NCBI GenBank assembly: GCA_006739055.1
Contig: AP019702.1
Coordinates: 1,178,501-1,242,500, forward strand
DNA length: 64,000 nt
Direction of reading: 5' to 3'
DNA from: Allostella vacuolata
Lineage (GTDB): Bacteria; Pseudomonadota; Alphaproteobacteria; ATCC43930; Allostellaceae
The notes beneath the pieces were generated by a model, which worked only from the letters and a program-made list of their open reading frames with translations, was not told the origin of the DNA and searched no databases. The stretch's first letter is position 1; each line of letters starts with the position of its first letter. The translations under genes and the position numbers were made by a program. Below are positions 12,400 to 29,723 of the stretch, piece by piece.

Positions 12400-13740
12400 T
12401 TGGCGCGACGCGGCATGCTGCGGGGCGTGCTCGCCAACGCGTCCGTCCTGCTCGCCGGCAAGTCGGTCGCGGCGGTGCTGACCCTCGCCCACACCGCGCT
12501 GGCCGCCCGCGCGCTCGGTATCGAGCAGTTCGGCGTGCTCATCCTGATCCATGCCTATGCCCAGACGATCGGCGATATCTGCAAGTTCCAGTCCTGGCAG
12601 GCGATCATCCACTATGGCACCGGCCCCCTGCGCGACGGGCGGCTCGGCGATTTCGGCCGCCTGCTCCGCTTCAGCCTGCGGCTCGACCTGCTGAGCGCCG
12701 TCGCCGGTACCCTGATCGGCGTCGCCGGCGCCGCCTATCTCGGCCGGTGGCTGGGCTGGCCGGCGGATTCCCTTCCGGCGGCCATGCTCTATGCCACCTC
12801 CGTCGCCTTCACCGTGATGGCAACGCCGACCGGCGTGCTGCGCCTCGTCGACCGCTTCGACCTGATGGCGGTGCAGAGCAACGTCGCGGCCCTGGTTCGC
12901 CTGGTCGGTGCGGTGGCGGTGTTCGCGTCGGGCGGCGGTCTCGGGGCGTTCCTGGCGGTCTGGTACGCGGCCAGCGTGGCGGCGTGGATCGCGCTCTTCG
13001 GCTCGGCCTGGTGGCAGCTCCGCCGCCGCGGCTACCTGGCGCCGGTCGAGCGCGCGCCCGACGGGCTCGGCGGCGGCTTCCCGGGCCTGTGGAAGTTCGT
13101 CTGGATCACCAACTTCAACACCACCATCAACATCGGCTTCAAGCAGCTGACCGTCCTGCTGATCGGGGCCATGCTCGGCCCGCGCGAGGCGGCCCTGTTC
13201 CGGGTGGCCCGCCAGGTCGGCGACGCCATCGCCAAGCCGGCCCGCCTGCTGATCCCGGCCCTCTACCCGGAGTTGGCCCAGCTCTGGTCCAGCGGCAAGG
13301 TGGCCGACCTGCGCCGGCTCGTCCTGCAGGTCGGGCTGATCGCCGGCGGGGTGGCGATCCTGCTGGTGGCGGTGGTGCTGGCGGCGGGCGGTCCTCTACT
13401 GCGGGTGGTGATGGGACCGGGTTTCGCGGAAGGAGCTGCGATCATGGCCTGGCTGGTCGCAGCGGCGGCGGTGGGGGTGGCGGCGCTGCCCTTCGAGCCG
13501 CTGCTGATCTCGGTCGGCCATGCTTCGTCTGCGCTAGTGATACGTATAGTAACTATAATACTGTACCTGCCCGCAGCCCTGGTACTGGTGGATCGCTACG
13601 CCCTCCTGGGCGCTGGAATTGCCGTTCTCGCCGGCGCGGTGATGTTGTTTTTCGGGCAGTTCATCGCGGTGCTTCGCTGGAATCGCGCAACGCCGCGTAC
13701 GCCGCGGGAGCCCGAGGCGGTGCCGAAGGGACGGGAATAG
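12400..13740 (+). CDS. Wzx-like polysaccharide/lipid flippase (MOP superfamily)
   Basis: About 446 residues with 12 or more predicted membrane helices. The opening MLRGVLANASVLLAGKSVAAVLTLAHTALAARALG and the middle segment NTTINIGFKQLTVLLIGAMLGPREAALFRVARQ are typical of Wzx/polysaccharide-transporter proteins, which flip lipid-linked saccharides across the inner membrane. The start is uncertain: TTG 12400 is used here (MARRGMLRG...), while ATG 12415 and GTG 12364 are alternatives, none with an ideal RBS. It is followed after 58 bases by the fatty-acyl-AMP ligase of the sphingolipid operon, so it might move a sphingolipid or glycan. Bases 13536-13572 are strikingly AT-rich with rare codons (ATA, GTA, ACT), unlike the rest of the gene. 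Confidence 0.8.
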   Translation: MARRGMLRGVLANASVLLAGKSVAAVLTLAHTALAARALGIEQFGVLILIHAYAQTIGDICKFQSWQAIIHYGTGPLRDGRLGDFGRLLRFSLRLDLLSAVAGTLIGVAGAAYLGRWLGWPADSLPAAMLYATSVAFTVMATPTGVLRLVDRFDLMAVQSNVAALVRLVGAVAVFASGGGLGAFLAVWYAASVAAWIALFGSAWWQLRRRGYLAPVERAPDGLGGGFPGLWKFVWITNFNTTINIGFKQLTVLLIGAMLGPREAALFRVARQVGDAIAKPARLLIPALYPELAQLWSSGKVADLRRLVLQVGLIAGGVAILLVAVVLAAGGPLLRVVMGPGFAEGAAIMAWLVAAAAVGVAALPFEPLLISVGHASSALVIRIVTIILYLPAALVLVDRYALLGAGIAVLAGAVMLFFGQFIAVLRWNRATPRTPREPEAVPKGRE

Positions 13741-13798
13741 TTTCCGCTGGTTCTCCGATCCACTATTATTTCATGACCATTTCTCATATTACGCCCAG

Positions 13799-15541
13799 AT
13801 GACCGCACCCACGCCGACCGCCAGCGGCCTCGTCCGCCAGCGCACTGCCGAGTTCGATACGATCCAGGAGGCGCTGGAGTTCGCGGCGCAGGGCGCGACG
13901 GGCTTGAATTTCTACTCCGGCCGGGGCCAGCTCGTCGAAGTGCTGCCCTACCGGCAGTTGCGGGCGGAGGCGATGGAGCTCGCCCGCGGCATGCTGGCGT
14001 CCGGGCTCGTCCCGGGCGACCGGGCCGCCCTGATCGCGGAAACCGACGGCGATTTCGTCCGCGCCTTCTTCGCCTGCCTCTATGCCCGGTTGATTCCCGT
14101 GCCGCTGCCCCTGCCGACCACGGTCGGCGGCAAGGACGGCTACATCGCCAACCTCCGGCGGATGATCGAATCGGCCGGCGCCGTCGCGGCCATTGGGCCG
14201 GCGTCGCTGGACGGCTGGCTGCAGGCCGCCGTCGAGGGCCTGCCGCTCAAGGTCCAGGGCGCGGTCGCCGCCTTCGCCGGCGTTCCGGCCAGGGAGGTCG
14301 ACCTGCCGGCGGCGCGGGCGAGCGACCTGCTCTACATCCAGTTCTCGTCGGGCAGCACGCGCTTCCCGCTCGGCGTATCGGTCACCCAGCGCGCCTTGAT
14401 GGCCAATGCGCGGGCGATCAGCGGCGACGGGCTGGTGACGACGGCGGCCGACCGCTGCGTCTCGTGGCTGCCGCTCTACCACGACATGGGGCTGGTGGGC
14501 TTCCTGCTGGCGCCGATGCTGAGCCAGCTGTCGGTCGACTTCATCCAGACCCGGGAATTCGCGCGCCGGCCGCTGCAGTGGCTCGATCTCATCACCCGCA
14601 ACGGCGGCACCATCTCCTACAGCCCGACCTTCGGCTACGAGCTGTGCACCCGCCGGGCGGAAGGGGCGCCGATGGACCGTCTCGACCTCGGCACCTGGCG
14701 GGTGGCCGGTGTCGGCGGCGACATGATCCGCCTCGGCCGGCTGAAGAGCTTCTCCGACACCTTCGCGGCCCGGGGCTTCCGCGGCAGCGCGTTCCTGGCC
14801 AGCTACGGCATGGCCGAGGCGACGCTGGCGCTGAGCTTCGCCCCGCTCGATGTCGGCCTCGTCACCGAGCATGTGGACATCGACCGCCTGGAGCGCAGCG
14901 GCGCGGCGGTTCCGCCCGATGCCGGGACCACCCGCGCCCGGGACTTCGTGCGCTGCGGCCCGGCCCTGCCGGGACATGCGCTGGAGGTGCGCGACGGGTC
15001 GGGCGCGGTGCTGCCGGAACGCCGGGTCGGGCGCATCTTCGCCCGCGGCCCCAGCCTCATGGAAGCCTATTTCGGCAGCCCGGCCGAGACCCAGCAGGTG
15101 CTGTCGCCGGACGGCTGGCTCGACACCGGCGACCTCGGCTTCATGGCCGACGGCGAGATCGTCATCACCGGCCGGGCCAAGGATCTGATCCTGGTCAATG
15201 GCCGCAACGTCTGGCCGCAGGACCTGGAGTGGACGATCGAGAACGAGGTGGAGACGATGCGCACGGGCGATGTCGTCGCCTTCGCGCTCGACACGGCGGC
15301 CGAGGAGCAGGTGGTGGTGCTGGCGCAGTGCCGTGCCTCCGGCCGGGACGAGCGTGTGGCCCTGCGCGACGAGATCACCCGCGTCATCCGCGCCCGGCAC
15401 AGCCTCGAGGTTTCGGTCACCCTGGTGCCGCCGCGCGCCCTGCCGCAGACCTCGTCCGGCAAGCTGAGCCGGGCGCAGGCGCGCGACTTCTATAGCCGCG
15501 GCCTCTTCACCGCGCAGGAGCCGCCCGGGCTTCCCGGGTGA
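13799..15541 (+). CDS. Fatty-acyl-AMP ligase (FAAL/acyl-ACP synthetase), sphingolipid locus
   Basis: A 580-residue adenylate-forming enzyme. It has the phosphate-binding YIQFSSGSTRFPLG (about 178-191), YHDMGLVG typical of FAALs, YGMAEATLAL (about 335), DTGDLGFMADGEIVITGR (about 441) and the C-terminal catalytic Lys in SSGKLSRAQ. It activates a fatty acid as acyl-AMP, most likely for loading onto the ACP encoded at 16715. Gene order (acyl ligase, NAD-epimerase-like reductase, ACP, serine palmitoyltransferase) parallels the Caulobacter crescentus ceramide cluster, where an acyl-CoA synthetase-like protein and an ACP are required. Its stop overlaps the following GTG start. An AT-rich 58-bp spacer upstream may carry a promoter. 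Confidence 0.85.
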   Translation: MTAPTPTASGLVRQRTAEFDTIQEALEFAAQGATGLNFYSGRGQLVEVLPYRQLRAEAMELARGMLASGLVPGDRAALIAETDGDFVRAFFACLYARLIPVPLPLPTTVGGKDGYIANLRRMIESAGAVAAIGPASLDGWLQAAVEGLPLKVQGAVAAFAGVPAREVDLPAARASDLLYIQFSSGSTRFPLGVSVTQRALMANARAISGDGLVTTAADRCVSWLPLYHDMGLVGFLLAPMLSQLSVDFIQTREFARRPLQWLDLITRNGGTISYSPTFGYELCTRRAEGAPMDRLDLGTWRVAGVGGDMIRLGRLKSFSDTFAARGFRGSAFLASYGMAEATLALSFAPLDVGLVTEHVDIDRLERSGAAVPPDAGTTRARDFVRCGPALPGHALEVRDGSGAVLPERRVGRIFARGPSLMEAYFGSPAETQQVLSPDGWLDTGDLGFMADGEIVITGRAKDLILVNGRNVWPQDLEWTIENEVETMRTGDVVAFALDTAAEEQVVVLAQCRASGRDERVALRDEITRVIRARHSLEVSVTLVPPRALPQTSSGKLSRAQARDFYSRGLFTAQEPPGLPG

Positions 15542-16503
15542 CTGCGCCCGTCGCCGCGCTGACCGGCGGCACCGGCTTTCTCGGCCGGCCGCTGGCCGCG
15601 GCACTGGCGGCCCGCGGCTACCGGGTCCGGCTGCTGGTGCGGCGCGATCCGGTCCACCCGCAGCTGCGGGACCTGGATTTCGAGATCGTGCCCGGCGGGC
15701 TGTCCGATCCGGGGGCGCTCGACCGTCTGGTGCGGGGGGCGGCCGTCGTCGTCCACGCCGCCGGCCTGGTGAAGGCGGCCCGGCCCGGCGCGCTGTGGGC
15801 CGCCAATCGGGACGGCACCGCCCGGCTGGTGGAGACGATGCGACGGCAGGCCGGCCGGCCGCGGCTGGTGCTGGTCTCCAGCCTGGCCGCGCGCGAGCCG
15901 GGCCTGTCGCCCTATGCGGCGAGCAAGCGGGCGGGCGAGGCGGCGGCGGAGGCCGGGCTGACGCCGGCCGAGCGCGTGATCGTGCGGCCGACCGCGATCT
16001 ACGGACCCTGGGATTGCGAGCTGCTGGACTTCTTCCGGCTGGCGGACCGCGGGCTGATGCCGGTGCCGGGCCCACCCGATGCCCGGCTGACCCTGATCCA
16101 TGTCGAGGATGCGGCCGCCGCCATCGCCGCCTTGGCCTGGGCGGCGCCCGGCGGCGGCGTCCACGCCCTGGCCGACGGCAACCCCGATGGATATGGCTGG
16201 GCGGAACTCGGTCAGGCGATGGGGGCGGCGTTCGGTCGCCGGCTGCGGCCGGTCCGGGTGCCGCGGCTGCCGATCGCTCTTTTCGCCCGGGCCGCCGCGG
16301 CCGGCGCCTGGGCGTCGGGCCGGCCGGCGATGCTGACCCCGGGGAAGCTGCGCGAGCTGACCCATCGCGACTGGCGCGTGCGGCCGGACGAGCTTCCGCC
16401 CGCCGGAATCGCCGGGCCGGCGGTCAGCCTGGCGCAAGGTCTGCGGGCTACGGTCGAGTGGTATCGCCAGGCCGGCTGGCTGCCTGCCGCCCGCGCCGGC
16501 TAG
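15538..16503 (+). CDS. NAD(P)-dependent epimerase/reductase, CerR-like (ceramide reductase candidate)
   Basis: A 321-residue extended SDR protein with the nucleotide-binding ALTGGTGFLGRPL at the start, VVHAAGLVK, and a Tyr-x3-Lys in YAASKRAGE (about 125-129). It starts at a GTG overlapping the acyl ligase stop (GTGA). In the Caulobacter ceramide cluster an NAD-epimerase-like protein (CerR) reduces the 3-keto group after N-acylation. The same position here, between the acyl ligase and ACP/SPT genes, supports that role. Motifs alone prove only the SDR fold; the substrate is inferred from context. Confidence 0.78.
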   Translation: MTAPVAALTGGTGFLGRPLAAALAARGYRVRLLVRRDPVHPQLRDLDFEIVPGGLSDPGALDRLVRGAAVVVHAAGLVKAARPGALWAANRDGTARLVETMRRQAGRPRLVLVSSLAAREPGLSPYAASKRAGEAAAEAGLTPAERVIVRPTAIYGPWDCELLDFFRLADRGLMPVPGPPDARLTLIHVEDAAAAIAALAWAAPGGGVHALADGNPDGYGWAELGQAMGAAFGRRLRPVRVPRLPIALFARAAAAGAWASGRPAMLTPGKLRELTHRDWRVRPDELPPAGIAGPAVSLAQGLRATVEWYRQAGWLPAARAG

Positions 16504-16714
16504 TCGCCCCAGCGAGTTGCCGGCGGGCCGGGCCAACCTCTCTCAACGCCCGAGCAACCGGAAAGTTCCGCCACTTTATGGATGACGTATTGCAATTGAC
16601 TTACGGTTCTGTGACCTTACGGCGGGCCACGGCTGTGGCCCCATGCGGCATGACCTGTCTGGTGCCGCGTCCTCGCCTTGCCTGGTATTTGCGACACTGC
16701 TGCGGATTGCGCGT

Positions 16715-16963
16715 ATGCACGCTTTGGATGCTTTGGAAGAGCGGATAGTCGCCGAGCTTCGGGCAGTGGTCGACCCCAACATCGAAATCTCCCGGAACAC
16801 CGACATCTCGCGGGATCTGGGCCTGGATTCGCTGACCATCATGAACTTCGTGATGAAGCTCGAAGACGCGTTCGATCTGTCGATCCCGCTGGAGCGACTT
16901 CCCGAGATTCAGACCGTCGCCGATCTGGCCAAGACGATCCGAGACATCCAGGCGAAGGTCTGA
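16715..16963 (+). CDS. Dedicated acyl carrier protein of the sphingolipid operon
   Basis: An 82-residue ACP with the phosphopantetheine attachment motif DLGLDSLTIMNFVMKLEDAF (Ser in DSL about residue 37) and the acidic helix-2 profile of the family. The ATG at 16715 gives a normal ACP length; upstream in-frame sequence is not ACP-like. It lies two bases before the serine palmitoyltransferase start, so the pair is co-translated. It probably supplies acyl-ACP, charged by the FAAL at 13799, to serine palmitoyltransferase, as the dedicated ACP does in Caulobacter sphingolipid synthesis. The 211 bp upstream contains an AT-rich patch (16570-16620) that may hold a promoter; no clear box was assigned. 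Confidence 0.9.
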   Translation: MHALDALEERIVAELRAVVDPNIEISRNTDISRDLGLDSLTIMNFVMKLEDAFDLSIPLERLPEIQTVADLAKTIRDIQAKV

Positions 16964-16965
16964 AG

Positions 16966-18180
16966 ATGACGATCCTCGAAAAATTCTCTCACCTGCGCGT
17001 TGCCTATGAGCAGCTGAGAAGCCTGGGCAGCGATCCCTTCACCGTGCGCTTCGACGGCGTGCTGTCGCCGACCGAGGGCCTGCGCGAGGGCAGGCGGACG
17101 ATCCTGTTCGGTACCAACAACTATCTCGGCCTGACCTTCGACCCATCCTGCATCGAGGCCGGGATCGAGGCGCTGATGCAATCGGGCACCGGCACCACCG
17201 GGTCGCGCATCGCCAACGGCAGCTACGACGCCCATACACGGCTGGAGCAGGCCCTGGCCGATTTCTACGGCCGTCGCCGCGGCATGGTGTTCACGACCGG
17301 CTACCAGGCGAACCTCGGCATCATCTCGACCGTCGTCGGCAAGGGCGACTACCTCATTCTCGACGCCGACAGCCACGCCAGCATCTATGACGGCGCGCGG
17401 CTGGGCACGGCCCAGGTCATCCGCTTCCGCCACAACGATCCCGAGGACCTGCGCAAGCGCCTCGCCCGCCTGCCGCAGGCCGGCAACAAGCTGATCGTCG
17501 TCGAGGGCATCTATTCGATGATGGGCGACACCGCCCCCTTGCGCGAGATCGCCCAGGTCAAGGCGGAGGCCGGCGCCTATCTGCTGGTCGACGAGGCCCA
17601 TTCGCTGGGCGTGCTGGGCCGCCAGGGGCGCGGCCTCGCCGAGGCGGCGGGGGTGGAGGCCGATGTCGACTTCATCGTCGGCACCTTCTCGAAGACGCTG
17701 GGCAGCATCGGCGGCTTCTGCGTCTCCGACCTGCCGGACTTCGACGTGCTGCGGGTCGCCTGCCGGCCCTACATGTTCACGGCCTCGCTGCCGCCGACCC
17801 TGGTCGCCTCGACCCTCCAGGCGCTGAACCGGCTGCAGTCGGATCCCGGCCTGCGCGCCCGGCTGCTGTCGAACTCGCGCCGTTTCCACAGCGGGCTGGA
17901 CCGGCTCGGCTTCCGGCTCGGCGCCGATGCGACCCCGATCGTGGCCGTGGTGCTGGAGGATCGCGACCTCGCGGTCGCCTTCTGGAACCGGCTGCTGGAA
18001 GCGGGGCTCTACGTCAACCTGGCCTTGCCCCCGGCGACCCCGGACGGCTCGGCCATCCTGCGCTCCAGCGTCAGCGCCGCGCACACGGTGCAGCAGATCG
18101 ACACCGCGATCGGACTGTTCGCCGCGGTCGGCGAGGAACTGGGCGTGCTGAGCCCCCGGCCGCTCGCGGCCATGGCCTGA
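16966..18180 (+). CDS. spt: Serine palmitoyltransferase (alpha-oxoamine synthase)
   Basis: A 404-residue PLP enzyme that condenses serine with an acyl thioester to give 3-ketosphinganine, the first step of sphingolipid synthesis. Visible motifs are TNNYLGLTFDP, GSGTTGSR-like SGTGTTGSRIANG, DADSHASIYDGARL, DEAHSLGVLG and the PLP lysine in TFSKTLGSIGG (about K243). The alternatives in the family (KBL, ALAS, BioF) are unlikely given the flanking ACP, FAAL, CerR-like gene and the ceramide kinase-like gene opposite. Length equals that of bacterial SPTs. An RBS-like gaag sits just before the ATG. The 3' end, including the stop codon, is part of a 24-bp tandem repeat. Confidence 0.9.
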   Translation: MTILEKFSHLRVAYEQLRSLGSDPFTVRFDGVLSPTEGLREGRRTILFGTNNYLGLTFDPSCIEAGIEALMQSGTGTTGSRIANGSYDAHTRLEQALADFYGRRRGMVFTTGYQANLGIISTVVGKGDYLILDADSHASIYDGARLGTAQVIRFRHNDPEDLRKRLARLPQAGNKLIVVEGIYSMMGDTAPLREIAQVKAEAGAYLLVDEAHSLGVLGRQGRGLAEAAGVEADVDFIVGTFSKTLGSIGGFCVSDLPDFDVLRVACRPYMFTASLPPTLVASTLQALNRLQSDPGLRARLLSNSRRFHSGLDRLGFRLGADATPIVAVVLEDRDLAVAFWNRLLEAGLYVNLALPPATPDGSAILRSSVSAAHTVQQIDTAIGLFAAVGEELGVLSPRPLAAMA

Positions 18181-18231: not shown

Positions 18232-18247
18232 CCGTCGAGGGCACGGC

Positions 18248-19180
18248 CTATCGCACCACTCCGCGGCGCCACAGGCGCCAGAGAATGGCCGGTCCGGCCA
18301 GGACCGGATGGCGCAGCTGCCAGGGCGTCAGGTCGAGGCGGGTGCCGCTGTGGCGCTCGATCTTCCAGGCGAGATAGCGTCCGCCGTCGGTGAAGGTGAA
18401 GGCGGCCTTGACCAGCCGCACGAGATTGAGCGCCTTGCCGGCCATGGCGCGGCCGTGCCAGGTGCGGCGGGCGCGCCGGCGCGCCGCCGGTCCCACTCGC
18501 GGCGAGAGCGTGCCGTCGGCGCGCCGTTCCATCTCGATCCCGGCCTCGGCCCAGGCCGGCACCAGCATCTGGCGGTAGCGCGCGGGGGCATGATCGACGA
18601 TCTCCAGGGCCCGGCCCGCCCGTTCGACGCGCAGCTCGGCGCGATAGGTATGGGCGAAGAGGGTGCGCCAGAAGTCGAGCGGGTCGCCCGCTTCCGGTCC
18701 GAGCAGGGCGGCCCAGCGCGCGCCGGTGACGACGGCCCGGACCACTGCGGCCTCGACGCGGTCGCGGGCGGCGCCATCCCGCCAATGGACGAGTGCCGAG
18801 GGCTGCGCGAAGCGGGCCCAGATGGTGCCGTCCAGCCCCTCCGGCCCGGCGGCCCGGTGGAACCGGTCCAGGCGCAGGACGGCGACCTTGGCCCGCACCA
18901 CGCCGCCTTCATGCGGCACCTCCACATAGCTGACGTCGGGCGGCAGCAGGCGGCCGGCGACGGCCCGCCAGCCGGCCCCGTGCCAGGCGCGCAGGGAATC
19001 GACCAGGACGTAGAGGTCGAGCAGGCCGCCGGTATCGCCGTCGCGCAGCACCGAGCCGTAGAAGAGGATCCCCGCCACGGCGGGCGACCGCGCGGCCAGG
19101 TGGTCGGCCAGCGCCCGCGCGGCGGCCGGCACGGGCCGGGCGAGGTCCAGCCGGACGATCGCGGCGAGGTCGCCGGTCAT
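18248..19180 (-). CDS. Nucleotidyltransferase-fold protein of the ceramide headgroup operon
   Basis: A 310-residue soluble protein. The segment GILFYGSVLRDGDTGGLLDLYVLVD (about 36-60) resembles the GS...DxD core of nucleotidyltransferase-fold proteins. The rest (for example TIWARFAQPSALVHWRD) is not recognised. It is the last of three genes coupled by four-base overlaps after the CDP-alcohol phosphotransferase-like and ceramide-kinase-like genes, and it converges on spt. In Caulobacter a three-gene cluster (cpgABC) next to spt makes ceramide phosphoglycerate. This protein is a candidate equivalent of one of the non-kinase members, but which one cannot be said from memory. Catalytic competence is unproven. 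Confidence 0.6.
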   Translation of the reverse strand: MTGDLAAIVRLDLARPVPAAARALADHLAARSPAVAGILFYGSVLRDGDTGGLLDLYVLVDSLRAWHGAGWRAVAGRLLPPDVSYVEVPHEGGVVRAKVAVLRLDRFHRAAGPEGLDGTIWARFAQPSALVHWRDGAARDRVEAAVVRAVVTGARWAALLGPEAGDPLDFWRTLFAHTYRAELRVERAGRALEIVDHAPARYRQMLVPAWAEAGIEMERRADGTLSPRVGPAARRRARRTWHGRAMAGKALNLVRLVKAAFTFTDGGRYLAWKIERHSGTRLDLTPWQLRHPVLAGPAILWRLWRRGVVR

Positions 19181-20163
19181 GGGGCGAGGAAGCCGATCTC
19201 CGGGCCGGCCGAGATGCGGATGCGCCCGTCGCCATCGGCATCGAACGCCTCGCCGTCCAGGATGAAGGGCCGGGCCAGGGTCAGGGTGACCTCGCCGGCC
19301 CGCCCGCTGCGATAGTCCCGGGCCATCCAGGGCGCCGGCCGGCCGCGCAGGGTGCGCCAGAACCCGACCGACAGCCGGCGCGGGAGGGCGGCGACGTCGA
19401 GGAAGCGGACCGGCCCCGGCCCGGTTCCCCAGAACGGCCACAGGCCGAGCATCAGCCGGTCGAGCGTGGTCGCCAGGAAGACCAGCCGGTCGCCCGCCGT
19501 CGGCTGCATCCCGTCGAGCGCCACGGCCAGCGGCTCGCCGGCCCGCCAGCCGCCGGCCCGGCCGGACAGGGCCCGGAACAGCGATCCGGCGATGGTCAGC
19601 AGGACCGCCGGTCCCTGGGTGACGCCGCGGCGATGGACCGCCCCCTGCGCCAGCCCGACCGCCCGCGTGAAGGCGGCCGCCCCCAGGAAGAGCCCGTTGA
19701 CCGGCGGGTGCGACCGGTCGGGCCACTCGACCCGCAGCACCGGCCGCCGCCGGATCGCGCCCGGCATTTCGCCGGACCGGGCCAGTCCGGCCACGCGCCG
19801 CAGCCCGGCCGTCCCATGGCCGGCGCTGCCGAGCGCCGCCGCCACCAGGTTGGTCTTGCCCGAGGCCAGGATCGCCACGGCCGGCAGCCCGGCGCCGTAG
19901 GCCGCGGGCAGGGCGGTCAGCACCTCGCGCACGGTGCCGTCGCCGCCGTCTACGATCACCACCCCGACGGCTTCGCGTGCGAATTCGGCCAGGGCCTCCG
20001 CCAGTGCCGCGGGCGAGGCCGGGTCGGCGAAGCGGATGCCGAGCCGTTCCGCTTCGGCGTGCCGGGCACCGGCGGCCGCGGCCTTGTTGCGCTGGCTCCG
20101 CGGGTTGTGGATCAGCCCCAGGCGCGGTCCGGGTCCCCCCGAGATCGTCGGGCCCGGGATCAT
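19177..20163 (-). CDS. cpgB: Diacylglycerol/ceramide kinase family protein (CpgB-like)
   Basis: A 328-residue lipid kinase. The DAGK catalytic signature is clear: NPRSQRNK (20-27, variant of NPxSGxN) and IVDGGDGTVREVL (GGDGT at 73-77) near the N-terminus, with a beta-sandwich C-terminal half. In Caulobacter, a DAGK-family protein encoded beside spt (CpgB) phosphorylates ceramide as the first step to the ceramide-phosphoglycerate headgroup. The same adjacency here supports ceramide as substrate. A sequence-only reading would also allow diacylglycerol or another lipid alcohol. Four-base overlaps with both neighbours place it in one operon. Confidence 0.8.
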   Translation of the reverse strand: MIPGPTISGGPGPRLGLIHNPRSQRNKAAAAGARHAEAERLGIRFADPASPAALAEALAEFAREAVGVVIVDGGDGTVREVLTALPAAYGAGLPAVAILASGKTNLVAAALGSAGHGTAGLRRVAGLARSGEMPGAIRRRPVLRVEWPDRSHPPVNGLFLGAAAFTRAVGLAQGAVHRRGVTQGPAVLLTIAGSLFRALSGRAGGWRAGEPLAVALDGMQPTAGDRLVFLATTLDRLMLGLWPFWGTGPGPVRFLDVAALPRRLSVGFWRTLRGRPAPWMARDYRSGRAGEVTLTLARPFILDGEAFDADGDGRIRISAGPEIGFLAP

Positions 20164-22388: not shown

Positions 22389-22854
22389 TCGCCATCGGGT
22401 TGTCACCGGCCCTGGCCACGAACCGGGCGGCGGCGAAGGAGGGCGGCCCCAGCAGGGTCGAGGCGTCGTTGGAGAAGCCATAGCCTTCGGCCGGCAGGCC
22501 GACCGCGCTGCGGGTGAATTTCCGGTCGCCATCCTCGTCGTGATAGATCGCCAGCGCATAGGCGCCGGCCGCCGGTACCGCCAGGCAGGCGACGGTGGCG
22601 GGCCTGGCCGCCGGCACCCGCAGGCGGGCGACCTTGCCGCGTGGCGCCAGGAACCTGGCCGGATCGTCCGGATAGACGGTGACCGTGATGACGCCGGCTG
22701 CGGCGCGCACTCCGGCAATGGTCAGCATCAGGCGTACCTCGCCCGGTGCCCCCCGGCAGTCGGTCTGGGCGGCGGCGGCCGCGCCGAGCGGCAGGGCCAG
22801 GGTCGCGGCCATGCCGGCGCCGAGCGCGCCGCGCCGCAATAACGCTCCCATCAT
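22372..22854 (-). CDS. Exported DUF2141 family protein
   Basis: A 160-residue protein with an N-terminal signal peptide (basic start, hydrophobic core to about 28, AAAAAQT cleavage region). A single DUF2141 domain follows: VRLMLTIAGVRAAAGVITVTVYPDD, then AYALAIYHDEDGDRKFTRSAVGLPAEGYGFSND. DUF2141 proteins are periplasmic or cell-surface beta-sandwiches of unknown function. Two ATGs in tandem (22854, 22851) are both possible starts. It is convergent with and overlaps the end of the metallophosphoesterase gene and is divergent from the HIT gene. Confidence 0.78.
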   Translation of the reverse strand: MMGALLRRGALGAGMAATLALPLGAAAAAQTDCRGAPGEVRLMLTIAGVRAAAGVITVTVYPDDPARFLAPRGKVARLRVPAARPATVACLAVPAAGAYALAIYHDEDGDRKFTRSAVGLPAEGYGFSNDASTLLGPPSFAAARFVARAGDNPMAITLKY

Positions 22855-22930
22855 CTTGTGCCGATCCCGGACTGTTCGATAACAATGCGGGGCCAGCCTG
22901 CCGCGGCCGGCCCTCTCGCCAGGATGTACC

Positions 22931-23368
22931 ATGCCCAATGCCACGATGACGAAATTCGGATTCCCCCGGACGCTGGTCGCGGAGACCCGGCACTGGGTGG
23001 TCCTGGTGCGGCCGCAGCAGGTGACGCTCGGGTCCCTGGTGCTGGTCTGCCGCGAGCCGGTCACGGCCTTCGGCCAGGCGAGCCCGGCGGCCTTCGCCGA
23101 CCTGCAGGCGGCGGTGGCGGCGACGGAGCGGGTGCTGCAGGGCTTCGTCGGCTATGAGCGCATCAACTACCTGATGCTGATGATGGTCGACCCGGACGTC
23201 CATTTCCACGTCATCCCGCGCTATTCCTCGGCGCGGGAGCGGGACGGCGTCGCCTATCCCGATGCCGGCTGGCCCGGCCCGCCCAACCTCGGCCAGTCGG
23301 TCGCGCTCGATGACGCGGCCCAGGCCGCGCTGGCGTCCCACCTGCGCGGGCTCTGGCCGGCCGGCTAG
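22931..23368 (+). CDS. HIT-superfamily hydrolase
   Basis: A 145-residue protein with the HIT-like core: LVAETRHWVVLVRPQQVTLGSLVLVCRE and the catalytic segment DVHFHVIPRY (histidine motif with VIPR, as in diadenosine-tetraphosphate phosphorylase-like HIT proteins). It hydrolyses or transfers nucleotide-phosphate bonds in the cytoplasm. An aggatg RBS precedes the ATG at 22931. It heads a rightward run of genes with the LptF/LptG pair, the bCerS-like acyltransferase and a MobA-like nucleotidyltransferase, so it may act on a CDP- or ADP-linked intermediate. That link is inference. Confidence 0.8.
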   Translation: MPNATMTKFGFPRTLVAETRHWVVLVRPQQVTLGSLVLVCREPVTAFGQASPAAFADLQAAVAATERVLQGFVGYERINYLMLMMVDPDVHFHVIPRYSSARERDGVAYPDAGWPGPPNLGQSVALDDAAQAALASHLRGLWPAG

Positions 23369-23402
23369 AGTCGGCGGCCGCGCGGTGCCGCGGCGCCTTT
23401 CA

Positions 23403-24626
23403 ATGCCGTCTCTGCGTCCCCCCACGCTGCTGGACCGCTACATCCTGGCCGAGGCGGCGCGTCCGCTCACGGTCTCGCTGGGGCTCGTCCTGACCGCCCT
23501 GCTGCTGGAACGGCTGTTGCGGCTCTTCAACATGCTGGCGCGCTCGGGCGGGGCTTTCGAGTCGGTGATCGAGCTGGTCGCCAACCTGGTGCCGCACTAT
23601 CTGGGGCTGGCCCTGCCGGCCGCCTTCTTCATCAGCATCTTCTTCGTCGTGGCGCGGCTGAGCGAGGAGAGCGAGCTGGAGGCGATGCTGTCGAGCGGCC
23701 TGTCGATCGGCCGCATCGCCAAGCCGCTGCTGTGGGTGGGGGTGGGGCTGTCGCTGTTCAGCGTCGCCCTGTTCGGCTTCCTGCAGCCCTACAGCCGCTA
23801 TGCCTATCGCGCGGTGCTGTATGCCGCCGTCAATGCCGGCTGGAGCGGCCGGGTGGAGCCGGTCGAGTTCGCCCGCGCGCCGCGCGGCTTCACCGTCACC
23901 GCCGACAAGGTGGATTATGACGGGCGGACGCTGGAAGGGGTGTTCGCCCAGCGCATCCTGGACGGCACCGAGGAGGCGTACACGGCCGAGACCGGTCGGC
24001 TCGGCCTGTCGGCGGACGGCCGGCGGCTGGTCCTGGTGCTGCGCAACGGACAGCGCTGGCAGCAGCCACCGGACGCGGCCCCGCCCAACCTGACGCGCTT
24101 CGACGAGCTGTCGATCGGCACCGACTTCAACCCGGACGCGCCGCCGTTCCGCAGCCGCGGCGACAGCGAGCGGGAGCTGACCCTGGTCGAGCTGTGGCGC
24201 GAGATGCACGATCCCGCCTCGAAGATGTCCCGGCGCCGGCTGGCGGCGGAGTTCCATACCCGGCTGGTGCGGGCGGTCTCGCTGCCGCTGCTGCCGCTGC
24301 TCGCGATCCCGCTCGGCGTGGCGGCCAAGCGCGGGCGGCGCTCGTCCGGCCTGATCATGGCGGCGCTGGTCCTGGTCCTCTACCACCACGGCATTCAGCT
24401 CGGGCAGACGCTGGCCGCGGCCGGCCGGCTGCCGCCCGTGCCCGCCGTGTGGGTCCCGTTCGGCCTGTTCGCGCTCATCTGCCTGTGGCTCTTCCGCAGC
24501 AGCCTGGCGCGGCCCGGGCAGAACCCGTTCACCTGGATGGTGGAACGGATCGAGCACGGCATGCAGGCCGCCAGGCGCGCTTTCGCCCGCCGGCCGCGCG
24601 GCCCGATGGCCGGCGGGGCGGCATGA
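23403..24626 (+). CDS. LptF/YjgP-type ABC lipid exporter permease
   Basis: A 407-residue YjgP/YjgQ protein with six predicted membrane helices in two groups of three (about 25-125 and 300-380), around a periplasmic beta-jellyroll (LEGVFAQRILDGTEEAYTAETGRL). In the canonical Lpt system LptF pairs with LptG and the LptB ATPase to extract LPS from the inner membrane. Here it overlaps its partner LptG-like gene by four bases and lies directly before the bCerS-like gene. No lptD, surA, rsmA or aminopeptidase gene is nearby, the usual neighbours of the housekeeping pair. A role in exporting the sphingolipid is therefore possible, but it could be the only LptF in the genome. Confidence 0.85.
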   Translation: MPSLRPPTLLDRYILAEAARPLTVSLGLVLTALLLERLLRLFNMLARSGGAFESVIELVANLVPHYLGLALPAAFFISIFFVVARLSEESELEAMLSSGLSIGRIAKPLLWVGVGLSLFSVALFGFLQPYSRYAYRAVLYAAVNAGWSGRVEPVEFARAPRGFTVTADKVDYDGRTLEGVFAQRILDGTEEAYTAETGRLGLSADGRRLVLVLRNGQRWQQPPDAAPPNLTRFDELSIGTDFNPDAPPFRSRGDSERELTLVELWREMHDPASKMSRRRLAAEFHTRLVRAVSLPLLPLLAIPLGVAAKRGRRSSGLIMAALVLVLYHHGIQLGQTLAAAGRLPPVPAVWVPFGLFALICLWLFRSSLARPGQNPFTWMVERIEHGMQAARRAFARRPRGPMAGGAA

Positions 24627-25690
24627 CCGGACGGATGGCCCGCTATGTCGTCGGGATCTTCCTCGGCCGGACCATCGGCGCCGCCCTGGCGCTGGCGGCG
24701 CTGATGCAGGTTCTCGACCTGCTCGACGCCGCGACCGAGGTCATGGACCGCGGCAAGGGCGTGGCCGGGATCGGCTACTATGCCCTGCTGCGGCTGCCGG
24801 TCATCCTGGAGCAGACCTTTCCCCTGGCGGTCCTGGTGGGGGCGCTGCTGACCTTCGCCGGCCTCGCCCGGCACAACGAGATCGTCATCATGCGGGCGGC
24901 GGGCCTGTCGGTGACCCGGCTGACGGGCATGCTCCTGCTGCCGGTGCTGGCCATCGCCGGGCTGCATCTGGCCATCGCCGACCAGGTGGTGCCGCGCTTC
25001 GAGCGCCGGCTGGCGGTGTGGTGGGAGAAGCCGCCCGGCGAGGCGGATGGCGCGGGCAAGGCGACCTGGCTGCGGGTCGGGGAAGACCTGGTGTCGATCG
25101 ACCGGATCACCGCCGCCGGCACCCGGCTCGAGGGGGTACGCATCTATCGCCGCGGGCCCGACGACCAGCTGGTGCAGCGCACCTACGCCGCGACCGCCAT
25201 CCGCCAGGACCGGGTCTGGCGGCTCTATTCCGCCTCCGACGCCGTGGCCGGCCCGGACGGGATCGTCGTCGCCCGCACCACCGACCGGGTCTGGGATGTC
25301 CGCCTCACGCCCTCGAACCTGATCGAGGCGATGATGCCGTTCGCGCACATCTCTGCCACCACCGCCCGCAGCGGCCTGGCCGGGACCCGCGCCGGCGCGC
25401 GCCAGCCGGCCTACTACGCCATGCGCCTGCAGCGGGCGTTCGCCGAGCCGCTGGCGGTGGTCGTGATGCTGCTGCTGGCGACGCCGGCCGCGACCGCCAG
25501 CCGCCGGTCGGGGCAGTCCGGGCAGCGGTTGCTCCTGGGGCTGGCGCTCGGCATGCTGTTCCTGCTGGCCGACGGGATGCTGGCGGCGCTGGGCGAGGCC
25601 GGACGGCTCATCCCCGAAGTGGCGGCCTGGGGCGCGCTCGCCGTCTTCGGGAGCCTCGGTATCGCGATCCTGATCCACATCGACAGCTGA
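24623..25690 (+). CDS. LptG/YjgQ-type ABC lipid exporter permease
   Basis: A 355-residue partner of the preceding protein, with the YjgQ opening (MARYVVGIFLGRTIGAALALAALMQVLDLLD), the coupling region LARHNEIVIMRAAGLSVTRL that contacts the LptB ATPase, a jellyroll domain (TWLRVGEDLVSIDRITAAGTRLEGVRIYR) and three C-terminal helices. Its ATG overlaps the LptF-like stop. A bCerS-like acyltransferase starts nine bases after its end, so lipid synthesis and lipid export are transcriptionally linked. No ATPase gene is in the window, so it would have to use LptB encoded elsewhere. Confidence 0.85.
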   Translation: MTGRMARYVVGIFLGRTIGAALALAALMQVLDLLDAATEVMDRGKGVAGIGYYALLRLPVILEQTFPLAVLVGALLTFAGLARHNEIVIMRAAGLSVTRLTGMLLLPVLAIAGLHLAIADQVVPRFERRLAVWWEKPPGEADGAGKATWLRVGEDLVSIDRITAAGTRLEGVRIYRRGPDDQLVQRTYAATAIRQDRVWRLYSASDAVAGPDGIVVARTTDRVWDVRLTPSNLIEAMMPFAHISATTARSGLAGTRAGARQPAYYAMRLQRAFAEPLAVVVMLLLATPAATASRRSGQSGQRLLLGLALGMLFLLADGMLAALGEAGRLIPEVAAWGALAVFGSLGIAILIHIDS

Positions 25691-25698
25691 ACGGCGCC

Positions 25699-26829
25699 AT
25701 GATCGACATCCAGCCCGTCGCGGGCAAAGCCATGCTGGAGCAGTTCATCCGGCTGCCCTACCGCCTGCAGCGCGGCGACCCGGCCTGGGTCCCGCCGCTG
25801 CTGATGGAGCGGCGCGAGGCGCTGTCGGCGCGCAAGAACCCGCTGTTCCGCCAGGCCGAGGTGTGCTTCTGGCTCGCCCGCCGCGACGGCCGCGCAGTGG
25901 GGCGCATCAGTGCCCAGATCGACCGCCGGCTCCAGGCCGACGGGCGCGAGGGGATCGGCCATTTCGGCATGCTGGCCGGCGAGGACGACCCGGCCGTCTT
26001 CGCCGGACTGGTCGGTGCCGCGGAGGCCTGGCTGCGGTCCCGCGGCATCGGCCGGGTGCTGGGGCCCTTCAACCTGTCCATCAACGAGGAGGCCGGCCTG
26101 CTGGTCGACGGCCACGACACCCCGCCGATGCTGATGATGGGCCACGACGCGCCCTACGTCGCCGGGCACCTGGAGCGGCTCGGCTACGCCAAGGAAAAGG
26201 ACCTGCTGGCCTATCTCTACGACCTGAAGCGGCCATTGCCGGCCGCGATCACGGCGCGGATGGAGCGTACGGTGCCGGCCAACCTGCGCCTGCGGCCGGT
26301 CGACATGCGCCGGTTCGACCAGGAGGTGCAGACCCTGGTCGACATCTTCAACGACGCCTGGTCGGACAACTGGGGCTTCCTGCCGTTCAGCCGCGACGAG
26401 GCCCACCATCTGGGCCGGTCCATGCGGCCGCTGGTCGACCGGCGGCTCATCTGGTTCGCCGAGGTCGATGGCGAGGCGGCGGGCTTCATCGTCGGCCTGC
26501 CCAACCTCAACGCCGTCATCGCCGACCTGGACGGGCGGCTGCTGCCGTTCGGCTGGGCCAAGCTGCTGTGGCGCCTGAAGGTGCGGCGGCCGACGTCGGC
26601 CCGGGTGCCGCTGATGGGGATCCGGCGCCGCTTCGGGCACGGGCTCCTGGGCGGGCTGCTGCCGTTCCTGCTGATCGGGTCGCTGCGCCGCGAGGGGGAG
26701 GCGCTCGGCTACCGCCATGTCGAGCTGTCGTGGATCCTGGAGGACAACCAGCCGATGCGGCGCATCAACGAGGTGGTCGGCAGCGTCGCCTACAAGACCT
26801 ATCGCGTCTACGGAAAGTCCCTGGGGTGA
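25699..26829 (+). CDS. GNAT-fold N-acyltransferase, bacterial ceramide synthase (bCerS) candidate
   Basis: A 376-residue soluble acyltransferase (MIDIQPVAGKAMLEQFIRLPYRL...WVPPLL). Two GNAT-like halves can be seen: FWLARRDGRAVGRISAQID...GIGHFGML with AEAWLRSRGIGRVLGPFNLSINEEAGLLVDG, and IWFAEVDGEAAGFIVGLPNLN with the closing ELSWILEDNQPMRRINEVVG. This protein type, about 370-380 residues, corresponds to the GNAT-family ceramide synthase of Caulobacter, which N-acylates 3-ketosphinganine. With spt, ACP, FAAL and CerR-like genes 8 kb away, the set for ceramide is complete. It is coupled to the next gene by a GTGA overlap. The enzymatic role rests on context plus family resemblance. Confidence 0.78.
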   Translation: MIDIQPVAGKAMLEQFIRLPYRLQRGDPAWVPPLLMERREALSARKNPLFRQAEVCFWLARRDGRAVGRISAQIDRRLQADGREGIGHFGMLAGEDDPAVFAGLVGAAEAWLRSRGIGRVLGPFNLSINEEAGLLVDGHDTPPMLMMGHDAPYVAGHLERLGYAKEKDLLAYLYDLKRPLPAAITARMERTVPANLRLRPVDMRRFDQEVQTLVDIFNDAWSDNWGFLPFSRDEAHHLGRSMRPLVDRRLIWFAEVDGEAAGFIVGLPNLNAVIADLDGRLLPFGWAKLLWRLKVRRPTSARVPLMGIRRRFGHGLLGGLLPFLLIGSLRREGEALGYRHVELSWILEDNQPMRRINEVVGSVAYKTYRVYGKSLG

Positions 26830-27599
26830 CCCCGGTCACGGCGCTGGTCCTGGCCGGGTCGCGCGGGCCGGGCGACCCGATGGCGGTGGCGGCGGGGGTC
26901 GGGCACAAGGCGCTGATTCCGGCGGGCGGGGTGCCGATGCTGGTCCGGGTCGTCCGCGCCCTGCTGGCGACGCCGGAGGTCGGCCGGATCGTGGTCTGCA
27001 TCGAGGACCGGGCCATCGCGCTCGGCCTGCCGGAGATCGCCCGGGCGGCCGCGGCCGGGCGGCTCGACTGCATCGCCGCCGCCGGCAGCCCCAGCCAGAG
27101 CGTGGCGGCAGCACTCGCCCAACTCGGCACGCCGCTCCTGGTCACGACCGCCGACCATGCCCTGCTGCGGCCGGAATGGATCCGCCATTTCCTGGCCGGG
27201 CTGTCGCCCGACGCCGACGTGACGGCCGCCGTCGCGCGGGCCGAGGCGATCTTCGCCGCCGTGCCGAAGACCCGGCGCACCCTGCTGCGGTTCGCCGACG
27301 GGTCCTTCTCGGGCTGCAACCTGTTCCACCTGCGAACCCCGGCCGCAGCGGGCGCCGTCCAGCTGTGGCGCCGGGTCGAGGCCGAGCGCAAGCGCCCGCT
27401 GCGCATGGTCCGGCTGCTGGGCCCGGGGTTCCTGCTGCGCTTCGCGCTCGGCCGGCTGACGCTGGCCCGGGCGCTGGACCGCTTCGGACAGCTGGCCCGG
27501 GTCCGGGCCGCCGTGGTGGAAATGCCGTTCGGGGAAAGTGCGGTCGACGTCGACAAGCCGGCCGACCTGGAACTGGTCGAGACGCTGCTCCGTCGGTAG
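26826..27599 (+). CDS. MobA-like NTP transferase domain protein
   Basis: A 257-residue nucleotidyltransferase-fold protein starting with a GTG that overlaps the preceding stop. It opens TALVLAGSRGPGDPMA (G-x-R-x-P-D variant of the NTP-transferase nucleotide loop) and continues HKALIPAGGVPMLVRVVRAL, TTADHALLRPEWI (metal-binding D) and SAVDVDKPADLELVE. It probably couples NTP (CTP or GTP) to a phosphorylated alcohol or acid. As the last gene of the HIT-LptF-LptG-bCerS operon it is a candidate for making the activated headgroup precursor of the sphingolipid. Substrates unknown. Confidence 0.75.
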   Translation: MTPVTALVLAGSRGPGDPMAVAAGVGHKALIPAGGVPMLVRVVRALLATPEVGRIVVCIEDRAIALGLPEIARAAAAGRLDCIAAAGSPSQSVAAALAQLGTPLLVTTADHALLRPEWIRHFLAGLSPDADVTAAVARAEAIFAAVPKTRRTLLRFADGSFSGCNLFHLRTPAAAGAVQLWRRVEAERKRPLRMVRLLGPGFLLRFALGRLTLARALDRFGQLARVRAAVVEMPFGESAVDVDKPADLELVETLLRR

Positions 27600-27636
27600 C
27601 CGGTTGCCCCGGTATCGGGTTGAGCCGGGCGCGAAT

Positions 27637-28404
27637 TCAGCCGGCGCCGGCCAGCACCGCGGGCCCGCGCGGGGCAAGCCAGCCCTGGACCAACCGCTCG
27701 GCTCGCTTGACGTCGACCGGAAAGTCGATCTCGCCCCAGTCCAGCCCCTCGATCGACCGCACCCCGACCGGGATGCCCCGGCCGGCGAGCCGGTCGATCA
27801 CCGACAGGTACCAGAGCTTCAGGCCGGGCGGCGCGCGCATCAGGCGCTCGACCTCGCCCCGGAAGTGCCGGCCGCCGTCGGCGGTGAAGCGCAGGAAGCC
27901 GATCGACTCGCCGCCGACCAGCTCGGCCGACAGGGTCTTGCCGATCGCCAGCAGGCGGTCGCCGTCGAGCTGCACCTTCATGTCGTCGGCGTCGTAGGCG
28001 GGCTTGCGGTCGATGGTGACCGTGATGGGCGCCGATACCGGCTCCAGCAGCCGCGCGGCCACGGCCGGCTCGAACAGGGTGTCGCCGTTCAGGATCAGGA
28101 ACTCGTCCTGCATCTCCGGCCGCGCGATCCAGCAGCTCGCCAGGTTGTCGGCCACCGCGTAGAAGGGGTTGTAGAGCGTGCGCACCGCCAGGCCCGGCAA
28201 GCGCAGGCCGGCGAGCAGCGCCTCGATCTGCTCGGCGCCGAAGCCGGTGACCACCACCGCCTCCTCGACCCCGGCCTCGGCCAGGCCGCGCAGCTGCCAT
28301 TCGAGCACCGGCACCTGGGCCAGCTCGATCAGGCATTTCGGGCGCGTTTCGGTAAGGGGCAGCAGGCGCCGGCCCTGGCCGGCACCGAGGATTATCGCCT
28401 TCAT
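27637..28404 (-). CDS. Sugar/phosphocholine-type nucleotidyltransferase (LicC-like)
   Basis: A 255-residue NTP transferase: MKAIILGAGQGRRLLPLTETRPKCL (nucleotide loop), then NPFYAVADNLASCW, resembling the LicC phosphocholine cytidylyltransferase motif, LILNGDTLFEP (metal Asp) and a C-terminal IDFPVDVKRAERL. It likely forms a CDP- or NDP-linked product from a small phosphorylated alcohol or sugar. It is convergent with the preceding operon and divergent from a CDP-glycerol phosphotransferase-like gene, suggesting that the two form a CDP-donor/transferase couple. Choline itself cannot be concluded, because no choline kinase or transporter is nearby. Confidence 0.78.
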   Translation of the reverse strand: MKAIILGAGQGRRLLPLTETRPKCLIELAQVPVLEWQLRGLAEAGVEEAVVVTGFGAEQIEALLAGLRLPGLAVRTLYNPFYAVADNLASCWIARPEMQDEFLILNGDTLFEPAVAARLLEPVSAPITVTIDRKPAYDADDMKVQLDGDRLLAIGKTLSAELVGGESIGFLRFTADGGRHFRGEVERLMRAPPGLKLWYLSVIDRLAGRGIPVGVRSIEGLDWGEIDFPVDVKRAERLVQGWLAPRGPAVLAGAG

Positions 28405-28559
28405 CGACTACTCACCATCACCGCCCCGTGGCCACCCGAAAGCCGGCGCAGGCTGCCTGCCGGCCGGATCCACCGGGCACTCCTCCCGGCGGGCGAAAGC
28501 TCCTATCATGGGAAGCGTTCACCGAACCGCCACATAGCACAATCCGGACCCCAATTCCC

Positions 28560-29723
28560 GTGCCGACCGAGCCCGCCCTGCGGATCGCCTTCCTCTTCAA
28601 CGCCCAGTTCCACCAGATCCTGCACAGCCTGCCCATCGCATGCGCGATGGCTGCCGGCCACGCGGCGGCCGAAGTCTCGATCCTGGCGCCGACCGCGGCG
28701 CATTTCGCCTTCGTCGCCCGCTACCTGCCGCCCGCGGCCGCCGGCCGCCTGCGCTTCGTCGACCTCGGCTCGCCGGCCTGGCTGCGGCTCTACCGCGCCC
28801 TGTCGGGCGACCTCGCCGCCGGCAAGAAGGCGATTCTGGCCCACAACCGCGCCCTGCTGGCCGGGTTCGACGCGCTGGTCGTGCCGGAGCGCACCAGCGC
28901 CTACGTCAAGGAACTCGGCCTGCCGGGCCTGAAGCTGGTCCATACCGGGCACGGTGCCGGCGACCGCGAGCGCAGTTTCAACCCGGAAATCCGCAAGTAT
29001 GACTTCGTCCTGCTGTCGGGCCGCAAGTACGAGGAGCGGCTGCTGGCGCAGGGGCTGATCCGGCCGGGCCACTATGCCGTGGCCGGCTACAGCAAGTTCG
29101 ACCTGCTGCTCGACCGGCCGCCGCCCGACGGCCGCCGGCTGTTCGCCAACGATCGGCCGACCGTCCTTTATGCGCCGCACTTCGACCCGCGGGTCTCCTC
29201 CTGGCCGAAGCTGGGCCCGGCCCTGCTGGAGCAGGCCCTGGCGCGCCCGAACTACAACCTGATCTTCGCCCCCCACGTGCGCCTGTTCGACCCGGTGCGG
29301 TGGTGGAAGCGGCTGCCGTTCCGCCGCTTCGCCGCCGCGCCCAACATCCTGGTCGACCTGGGCAGCGACTGCTCGGTCGACATGACCTATACCAATGCCG
29401 CCGACGTCTATGCAGGCGACGTCAGCAGCCAGGTCTACGAGTTCATCGCCCGGCCGCGCCCTTGCGTGTTCCTGAACGCGCACCGCGCCGACTGGGAAAA
29501 GGATCCGTTCTATCTGTGCTGGCGGGGCGGCCCGGTGATCGAGGACGTCGCGGCCTTTCCCGCCGCCCTGCAGACCGCGCTCGATCGGTTCGAACGCTAC
29601 CGGCCGGAACAGGAGGCACTGTTCGCCCACACCTTCGACCTCGACCGCCGGCCGTCCGCCGAGCGGGCGGCGGACGCGATCGTCGCATTTCTGGAGAGGG
29701 GCCGGTCTACGCCCGGGCGATGA
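28560..29723 (+). CDS. CDP-glycerol glycerophosphotransferase-like protein
   Basis: A 387-residue protein with a GT-B-like layout. The N-terminal half starts ALRIAFLFNAQFHQILHSLPIA. The C-terminal half holds PTVLYAPHFDPRVSSWP, NYNLIFAPHVRLFD, ADVYAGDVSSQVYEFIARPRPCVFLN, matching the glyphos_transf (TagF/TagB) family that moves glycerol phosphate from CDP-glycerol. It has no membrane helix; such enzymes are membrane-associated. In a Gram-negative sphingolipid region it could add phosphoglycerol or a similar group to a lipid or glycan. The start is uncertain: GTG 28560 gives the conserved N-terminus but has a weak RBS, and an upstream GTG at 28428 adds 44 poorly conserved residues. The 3' end overlaps the convergent receiver gene. 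Confidence 0.75.
   Translation: MPTEPALRIAFLFNAQFHQILHSLPIACAMAAGHAAAEVSILAPTAAHFAFVARYLPPAAAGRLRFVDLGSPAWLRLYRALSGDLAAGKKAILAHNRALLAGFDALVVPERTSAYVKELGLPGLKLVHTGHGAGDRERSFNPEIRKYDFVLLSGRKYEERLLAQGLIRPGHYAVAGYSKFDLLLDRPPPDGRRLFANDRPTVLYAPHFDPRVSSWPKLGPALLEQALARPNYNLIFAPHVRLFDPVRWWKRLPFRRFAAAPNILVDLGSDCSVDMTYTNAADVYAGDVSSQVYEFIARPRPCVFLNAHRADWEKDPFYLCWRGGPVIEDVAAFPAALQTALDRFERYRPEQEALFAHTFDLDRRPSAERAADAIVAFLERGRSTPGR

Follow-up and report, generated by a model that had tools for sequence, protein, structure and literature searches.

A Caulobacter-type phosphosphingolipid gene cluster in Allostella vacuolata and an associated TagF-like gene

A block of 17 genes in Allostella vacuolata is, judged by its sequence, a near-complete and well-conserved cluster of the Caulobacter type for synthesis and export of ceramide phosphoglycerate (CPG) and CPG2, from which only LptC2 is missing. 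The block spans positions 12415 to 29723 of the 64,000-nucleotide stretch analyzed here (assembly GCA_006739055.1, contig AP019702.1, positions 1,178,501 to 1,242,500; hereafter the window), and the genome is a single contig of 5.83 Mb. The block is likely to be the orthologue of the CC_1168-CC_1152 phosphosphingolipid cluster of Caulobacter and to encode the whole of the pathway proposed below, and CPG and CPG2 are the lipid products expected of it. The gene set for CPG and CPG2 is already known, having been described in Caulobacter in 2024-25 (PMC11324152, PMC12275187). New here are a TagF-like gene that appears to be tied to sphingolipids and is likely the same as CC_1167 and the Tam41-like predicted fold of CpgC.

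Gene content and conservation of the cluster

The genes of the block are listed below with window coordinates, strand, and the evidence for each assignment.

12415..13740 (+), Wzx-like flippase at the CC_1166 position; PF01943, 8e-8; adjoins the fatty acyl-AMP ligase gene in the congener G405 and in Caulobacter loci; start uncertain, since the reading frame is open from 12145
13799..15541 (+), fatty acyl-AMP ligase (FAAL), AasR-like, CC_1165; NF006624, 849 bits (cutoff, 600)
15538..16503 (+), CerR-like reductase, CC_1164; PF01370, 4.9e-22; synteny
16715..16963 (+), specialized acyl carrier protein (ACP), AcpR-like, CC_1163; PF00550, 4.7e-13; DSL motif
16966..18180 (+), serine palmitoyltransferase (SPT), CC_1162; NF047599, 663 bits (cutoff, 500)
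18248..19180 (-), CpgC-like protein of 310 amino acids at the CC_1161 position; Tam41 fold in the model, no Pfam match
19177..20160 (-), CpgB-like ceramide kinase, CC_1160; PF00781, 1e-10; GGDGT motif
20160..21311 (-), CpgA-like CDP-alcohol phosphotransferase, CC_1159; PF01066, 2.5e-10; family motif
21411..22388 (+), metallophosphoesterase, CC_1158-like; PF00149, 1.1e-11
22372..22854 (-), DUF2141 protein; PF09912, 2.7e-24
22931..23368 (+), HIT protein at the CC_1157 position; PF01230, 0.0039, below cutoff
23403..24626 (+), LptF2; PF03739, 1.6e-70
24623..25690 (+), LptG2; PF03739, 1.2e-63
25699..26829 (+), bCerS-like GNAT acyltransferase (bacterial ceramide synthase), CC_1154; PF00583, 1.9e-5
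26826..27599 (+), CofC-like nucleotidyltransferase, CC_1153; PF12804, 6.4e-13; TIGR03552 (F420_cofC), 3.5e-4, far below cutoff
27637..28404 (-), CpgD, putative CTP:phosphoglycerate cytidylyltransferase, CC_1152; 62% to the CpgD of the Caulobacter stretch L218
28428..29723 (+), putative TagF/TagB-like CDP-alcohol phosphotransferase (hereafter GPT); Z score of 24.7 against TagF, PF04464 in aligned relatives, linkage to SPT

The motifs DSL in the ACP, D..DG..AR(8)G...D...D in the CpgA-like protein, GGDGT in the kinase, and the TFSK lysine in SPT are present; we take these to be the active-site motifs of the four proteins. The HIT protein scores below the Pfam cutoff (18.2 versus 21.5 bits), and a HIT gene sits between the phosphoesterase and LptF genes in L218; by position in L218 and L219 it would correspond to CC_1157.

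The published Caulobacter cluster likewise has 17 genes: LptC2, CC_1167, a flippase, four ceramide genes, the headgroup genes CC_1161 to CC_1158, CC_1157, LptF2, LptG2, bCerS, CC_1153, and CC_1152 (PMC11324152). It already contains a second LptC/LptF/LptG set, a potential flippase, a CDP-alcohol phosphotransferase, and two nucleotidyltransferase-like genes (PMC11324152). Every gene named in an initial annotation of the window lies at the position and on the strand given there; the metallophosphoesterase, DUF2141, and CpgC-like genes had been overlooked. Its proposal of a full synthesis-to-export pathway is borne out by gene families and synteny, but the transport and CDP-linked genes, which it regarded as additions to what is known from Caulobacter, belong to the set described in PMC11324152.

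Sixteen of the 17 window genes were matched in two Caulobacter stretches, L218 and L219, the exception being DUF2141. The gene order there is LptC2-GPT-flippase-FAAL-CerR-ACP-SPT, CpgC-CpgB-CpgA, phosphoesterase-HIT-LptF-LptG-bCerS-CofC, and CpgD. All five ceramide genes of the CPG/CPG2 cluster (FAAL, CerR, AcpR, SPT, and bCerS) were found in the window, the bCerS-like protein matching at 54% the L218 gene in the place of CC_1154. Counterparts of six headgroup genes (CC_1161, 1160, 1159, 1158, 1153, and 1152) were found as well, with relative positions that agree with those in L218. A flippase is represented by the PF01943 match. In L219, the gene adjoining GPT is LptC (PF06835, 3.4e-23, 82.6 bits against a cutoff of 21). 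Of eight cpgD primers for C. crescentus NA1000, five match L218/L219 exactly; two of the rest have 2 mismatches each and one has 4, a number no better than that given by chance in other stretches. The start of cpgD occurs with at most 2 mismatches in 19 of 75 Caulobacter genomes and exactly in 4, and in the stretches of these four no genome carried all eight primers. We infer that L218/L219 represent a close relative of NA1000 and assign CC_ numbers by gene position.

Two observations count against full equivalence with the Caulobacter cluster. No LptC2 was found in the window, the one LptC of the genome lying at 5336297, and the L219 flippase had no Pfam match at an E value of 0.1; it is so named because of a 42% match to the flippase of the window. 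LptC2 is also missing from three published clusters (PMC11324152). The genome has four PF03739 genes, two of them in the block, and another LptF/LptG pair lies elsewhere.

All 17 genes are colinear in G405, with identities of 62 to 85% and dN/dS ratios of 0.09 to 0.48 (Nei-Gojobori counts with Jukes-Cantor correction, the high G+C content being left uncorrected). When genes flanking the block were used as queries in 46 kb of G405, 1 of 21 was matched, and weakly (36%). SPT was sought at 1e-100 and was detected in 4 of 41 genomes of the order, including that of the window, with no match in the congeners G182 and G406. In 400 kb of G182 at a guessed place, the flanking genes of the window were not found as a group (two matches, 28% and 42%), and a control of 400 kb of an SPT-less congener gave no cluster-gene match of ≥45 bits.

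Recurring neighbors were counted in a class sample of 289 genomes, 40 of which have SPT at 1e-100. The 39 SPT-centered loci, one for each other SPT-positive genome, include 32 of at least 17 kb and otherwise end at a contig edge, so the counts are lower bounds. Ceramide genes near SPT were ACP (at least 33 loci), FAAL (31), CerR (30), and bCerS (19); headgroup genes were CpgC-like (at least 22), kinase (17), phosphoesterase (14), CofC-like (13), CpgA (9), and CpgD (6); export and other genes were LptG (at least 19), LptF (18), DUF2141 (5), Wzx (4), HIT (4), and GPT (2). Most of the genes that the initial annotation considered extra thus travel with SPT, with Wzx, HIT, and GPT doing so least often. 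Colinearity in G405, dN/dS ratios below 0.5, and recurring neighbors together argue that the block is not a chance assembly. The DUF2141 gene lies inside the cluster in G405 and in several Caulobacter, Phenylobacterium, Belnapia, and Oleisolibacter loci and has no counterpart in L218. Six loci (L026, L027, L029, L036, L101, and L143) carry a second CDP-alcohol phosphotransferase gene (34 to 37% to CpgA) after LptG, preceding bCerS in those stretches that include bCerS; the window block lacks this second gene.

GPT and its linkage to sphingolipid genes

From its distribution among genomes, GPT is an optional, sphingolipid-linked gene. At 0.001 it was detected in 11 of the 289 class-sample genomes; two weak rows (2e-17 and 1.3e-5, both without SPT) were dropped. 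SPT is present in eight of the nine genomes with a strong match (1e-50 or better, that of the window included), compared with 40 of 289 overall (Fisher P = 5.7e-7). The individual GPT loci considered here are the best 80 of 580 confirmed matches. SPT lies within the stretch in 37 of them, and in 36 of these 37, including loci from Caulobacter, Niveispirillum, and Acetobacteraceae, GPT is at most 1 kb away from FAAL or the flippase. For the other 43 loci, SPT was found in 40 of the 41 genomes concerned, L128 and L148 being left out since they share a Solimonas marina assembly with L110. Some of these 43 stretches are cut short: L112, L126, and L131 hold most of the cluster, and L114 ends after FAAL. 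The single SPT-less exception is a metagenome-assembled genome with a contig equal in length to that of the class-sample exception, G091, and the two may be the same genome. By record titles, the 80 loci belong to Acetobacteraceae, Caulobacterales, Sphingomonadales, Azospirillum-like organisms, and Solimonas-type gammaproteobacteria, with a few metagenome-assembled genomes labeled Burkholderiales, Nitrospirales, Marinimicrobia, or Klebsiella.

In L218/L219, GPT has LptC2 on one side and the flippase on the other, which is the place of CC_1167 in C. crescentus, and GPT is by this position most likely the counterpart of CC_1167. That gene was set aside as "probably unrelated," and its mutants have a cofitness with the spt mutant of 0.57 (PMC11324152). 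In 10 of 15 Caulobacter GPT loci, GPT is at most 72 bases from a flippase match; in 3 the distance is 750 to 790 bases, and the remaining 2 are second copies that lack a flippase. One second copy (L204, in Caulobacter genome G292) has a second SPT-like gene (65% identity) about 5 kb away, the other cluster genes being unmatched there.

Assignment of GPT to the TagF family draws on its structure model and its relatives. The model matches TagF (3l7k) with a Z score of 24.7 and a root mean square deviation (rmsd) of 3.7 over 324 residues, and TarL with a Z score of 23.1. Alignment of 50 GPT proteins gave 31 invariant columns, including H175, G176, P282, H283, D331, S333, S334, and E338; PF04464 was matched at an E value of 0.1 or better by 36 of the 50 (best, 5.3e-7), and a PDB profile search from them returned the TagF-like Cps3D (E value, 0.0015) and TarL (0.14). 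Because the model leaves its first 42 residues unordered, GPT probably starts at 28560. PF04464 at an E value of 10 also matches a Caulobacter vibrioides control, which, lacking position and score, gives weak support only. Among the papers listed in literature searches, no CDP-glycerol-type enzyme was found in sphingolipid clusters, and only PMC11324152 mentions CDP-glycerol, once.

Several results speak against this assignment or against a general role of GPT. Neither the GPT of the window (16.6 bits) nor that of L219 (14.1 bits) reaches the PF04464 cutoff of 22.1 bits, and UDP-GlcNAc 2-epimerase is nearly as close to the model as TagF (Z scores of 23.7 and 24.7), so the fold alone is not decisive for the family. 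GPT was found in 25 of 41 sampled Caulobacter genomes and is missing from 16; G329, a close relative of NA1000, has the remaining cluster with GPT missing; and only 8 of the 40 SPT-positive alphaproteobacteria have GPT, which is missing from 32. On account of these absences GPT cannot be a general requirement for CPG. Conceivably, GPT serves instead in capsule or polysaccharide synthesis and is near the cluster by mere position: the best PDB profile match, Cps3D, is a TagF-like capsule polymerase, the GT-B fold is common to sugar enzymes, and GPT was near SPT in only 2 of the 39 SPT-centered class-sample loci. We nevertheless consider a capsule role very unlikely, as SPT occurs in all but one of the 41 genomes whose GPT stretch held none, as GPT lies close to FAAL or the flippase in almost every SPT-holding locus, and as it is the last gene of the conserved block in G405.

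CpgC, CpgD, and the headgroup chemistry

The CpgC-like protein had no Pfam match and no PDB match by sequence or profile, and the Tam41 family was absent from the Pfam matches of 31 CpgC-like members. Its model (pLDDT, 92) gave Tam41 CDP-diacylglycerol synthases as the top five Foldseek rows, and superposition on three Tam41 entries gave Z scores of 18.2, 16.6, and 15.6 (best rmsd, 3.3 over 229 residues), compared with 7.5 for the next unrelated kind of protein. An InterPro domain hint of Tam41 likeness is already given in PMC11324152. The Tam41 fold supports a step from ceramide-1-phosphate to CDP-ceramide, and the simplest reading of the model is that the CpgC-like protein is probably a ceramide-1-phosphate cytidylyltransferase, giving CpgC a concrete candidate reaction. 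In the literature searched, Tam41 was found together with ceramide-1-phosphate or CDP-ceramide only in a review of lipid transfer proteins.

CC_1152 (CpgD) makes CDP-glycerate (PMC12275187), and nine of its residues have been published as contacts for CTP and 2-phosphoglycerate (PMC13228409). The window CpgD has seven of the nine, with Thr93 replaced by Ser and Thr88, a backbone contact, by Ala; the CpgD proteins of L218 and L220 each have all nine at the published numbers. CpgD (near full length, ≥48% identity, E value of 4e-65 or better) was found in 20 of the 289 genomes, including that of the window, and all 20 have SPT. A PDB sequence search with the window CpgD returned distant nucleotidyltransferases only, the best being a phosphocholine cytidylyltransferase (6e-15). 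Since the contact residues are kept, CTP and phosphoglycerate are the expected substrates, and a phosphoglycerate headgroup, not a new one, is expected. The initial annotation had raised the possibility of another headgroup, of which phosphoglycerol made from CDP-glycerol would be an example. The CDP-glycerol phosphotransferase-like enzyme and the second nucleotidyltransferase in the block would favor it, but it is not indicated, given the residues retained in CpgD, and a search limited to the block matched none of the 17 genes to a glycerol-3-phosphate cytidylyltransferase family. We regard a different headgroup as quite unlikely.

The donor used by GPT may be the CDP-glycerate of CpgD or a product of the CofC-like enzyme. 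Under the latter option, CofC and GPT would form a branch of their own parallel to CpgD and CpgA, in which CofC makes a nucleoside diphosphate (NDP)-glycerate, e.g., from 3-phosphoglycerate, and GPT transfers the unit. In the 43 SPT-less stretches of the best 80 of 580, the cluster gene most often present at 3 kb or less from GPT was CofC (17 stretches, alone in 11), followed by Wzx (9), and 16 stretches had no cluster gene at this distance; a CofC/FbiD homologue that accepts 3-phosphoglycerate is known (PMC8498797); and in Acetobacteraceae loci with GPT, CofC, and SPT, CpgA and CpgD were unmatched, most of these stretches ending at or just after CofC. Against a separate branch, CofC-like genes occur near SPT also without GPT, and CpgD is present in 7 of 8 genomes with GPT and SPT versus 13 of 32 that have SPT and lack GPT (P = 0.044), an enrichment that points to CpgD as the source of the donor. 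A separate CofC-GPT branch is therefore possible but doubtful. More speculative, and in our view improbable, is that GPT adds phosphoglycerate units, from CDP-glycerate or CofC-made NDP-glycerate, to ceramide headgroups to give CPG3 or longer chains, i.e., a ceramide-anchored, teichoic acid-like polymer carried to the outer membrane by the second Lpt-type system, with CC_1167 being the same enzyme.

Proposed pathway, surroundings, and known systems

We propose the following pathway. (i) By family and synteny, and as shown in Caulobacter, FAAL would charge a fatty acid onto ACP, SPT would condense the ACP-bound fatty acid with serine, and N-acylation by bCerS and reduction by CerR would yield ceramide. 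(ii) CpgB would phosphorylate ceramide, as shown in Caulobacter; the Tam41-fold CpgC-like enzyme probably uses CTP to convert ceramide-1-phosphate to its activated form, CDP-ceramide; CpgD would make CDP-glycerate, as shown for Caulobacter and in keeping with the residues kept in the window protein; and a second NDP-linked phospho-acid is the probable product of the CofC-like enzyme. CpgA and GPT would transfer such units to give CPG/CPG2-type headgroups, with possible trimming by the phosphoesterase, and GPT may change the number of phosphoglycerates added. (iii) The Wzx-like protein would flip the lipid, and LptF2/LptG2 would pull it towards the outer membrane with the only LptC detected in the genome.

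A further, so far unknown enzyme might be required for the headgroup (PMC11324152), and GPT is a specific candidate for this step. The survival of Caulobacter without lipopolysaccharide depends partly on CPG2 (PMC12275187), and its polymyxin B sensitivity requires the CPG2 genes (PMC11324152).

The left neighbor of the block is a PAS/GAF sensor kinase gene (8692-12261). To the right are a short response regulator-like frame (below its cutoff), a helix-turn-helix gene, and the convergent nonhomologous end-joining genes Ku and LigD (31097-34536); a fusion of CheB, CheR, PAS, and HWE histidine kinase (1,093 amino acids) lies at 35894-39175. With a G+C content of 72.5% for the cluster and 71.0% for the remaining window, composition gives no sign of foreign origin for the cluster.

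Among known systems, the Caulobacter cluster is the closest: apart from the position of GPT, 16 genes occur in the same order and on the same strands in L218. It differs in that GPT lies beyond CpgD in the window and beside the flippase in the Caulobacter relative, and in that the window block has DUF2141 and lacks LptC2. The CpgC-like protein resembles Tam41 CDP-diacylglycerol synthases in the fold of its model (Z scores of 15.6 to 18.2) but shares 12 to 13% identity with them, lacks a profile match, and would be expected to act on ceramide-1-phosphate. GPT shares with TagF, TagB, and TarL (PF04464) the GT-B fold and invariant H175-G176, P282-H283, and D331-x-S-S; unlike them, it has 13 to 15% identity and a score below the family cutoff, corresponds to the C-terminal part of TagF only (chain residues 351 to 724), and accompanies SPT.

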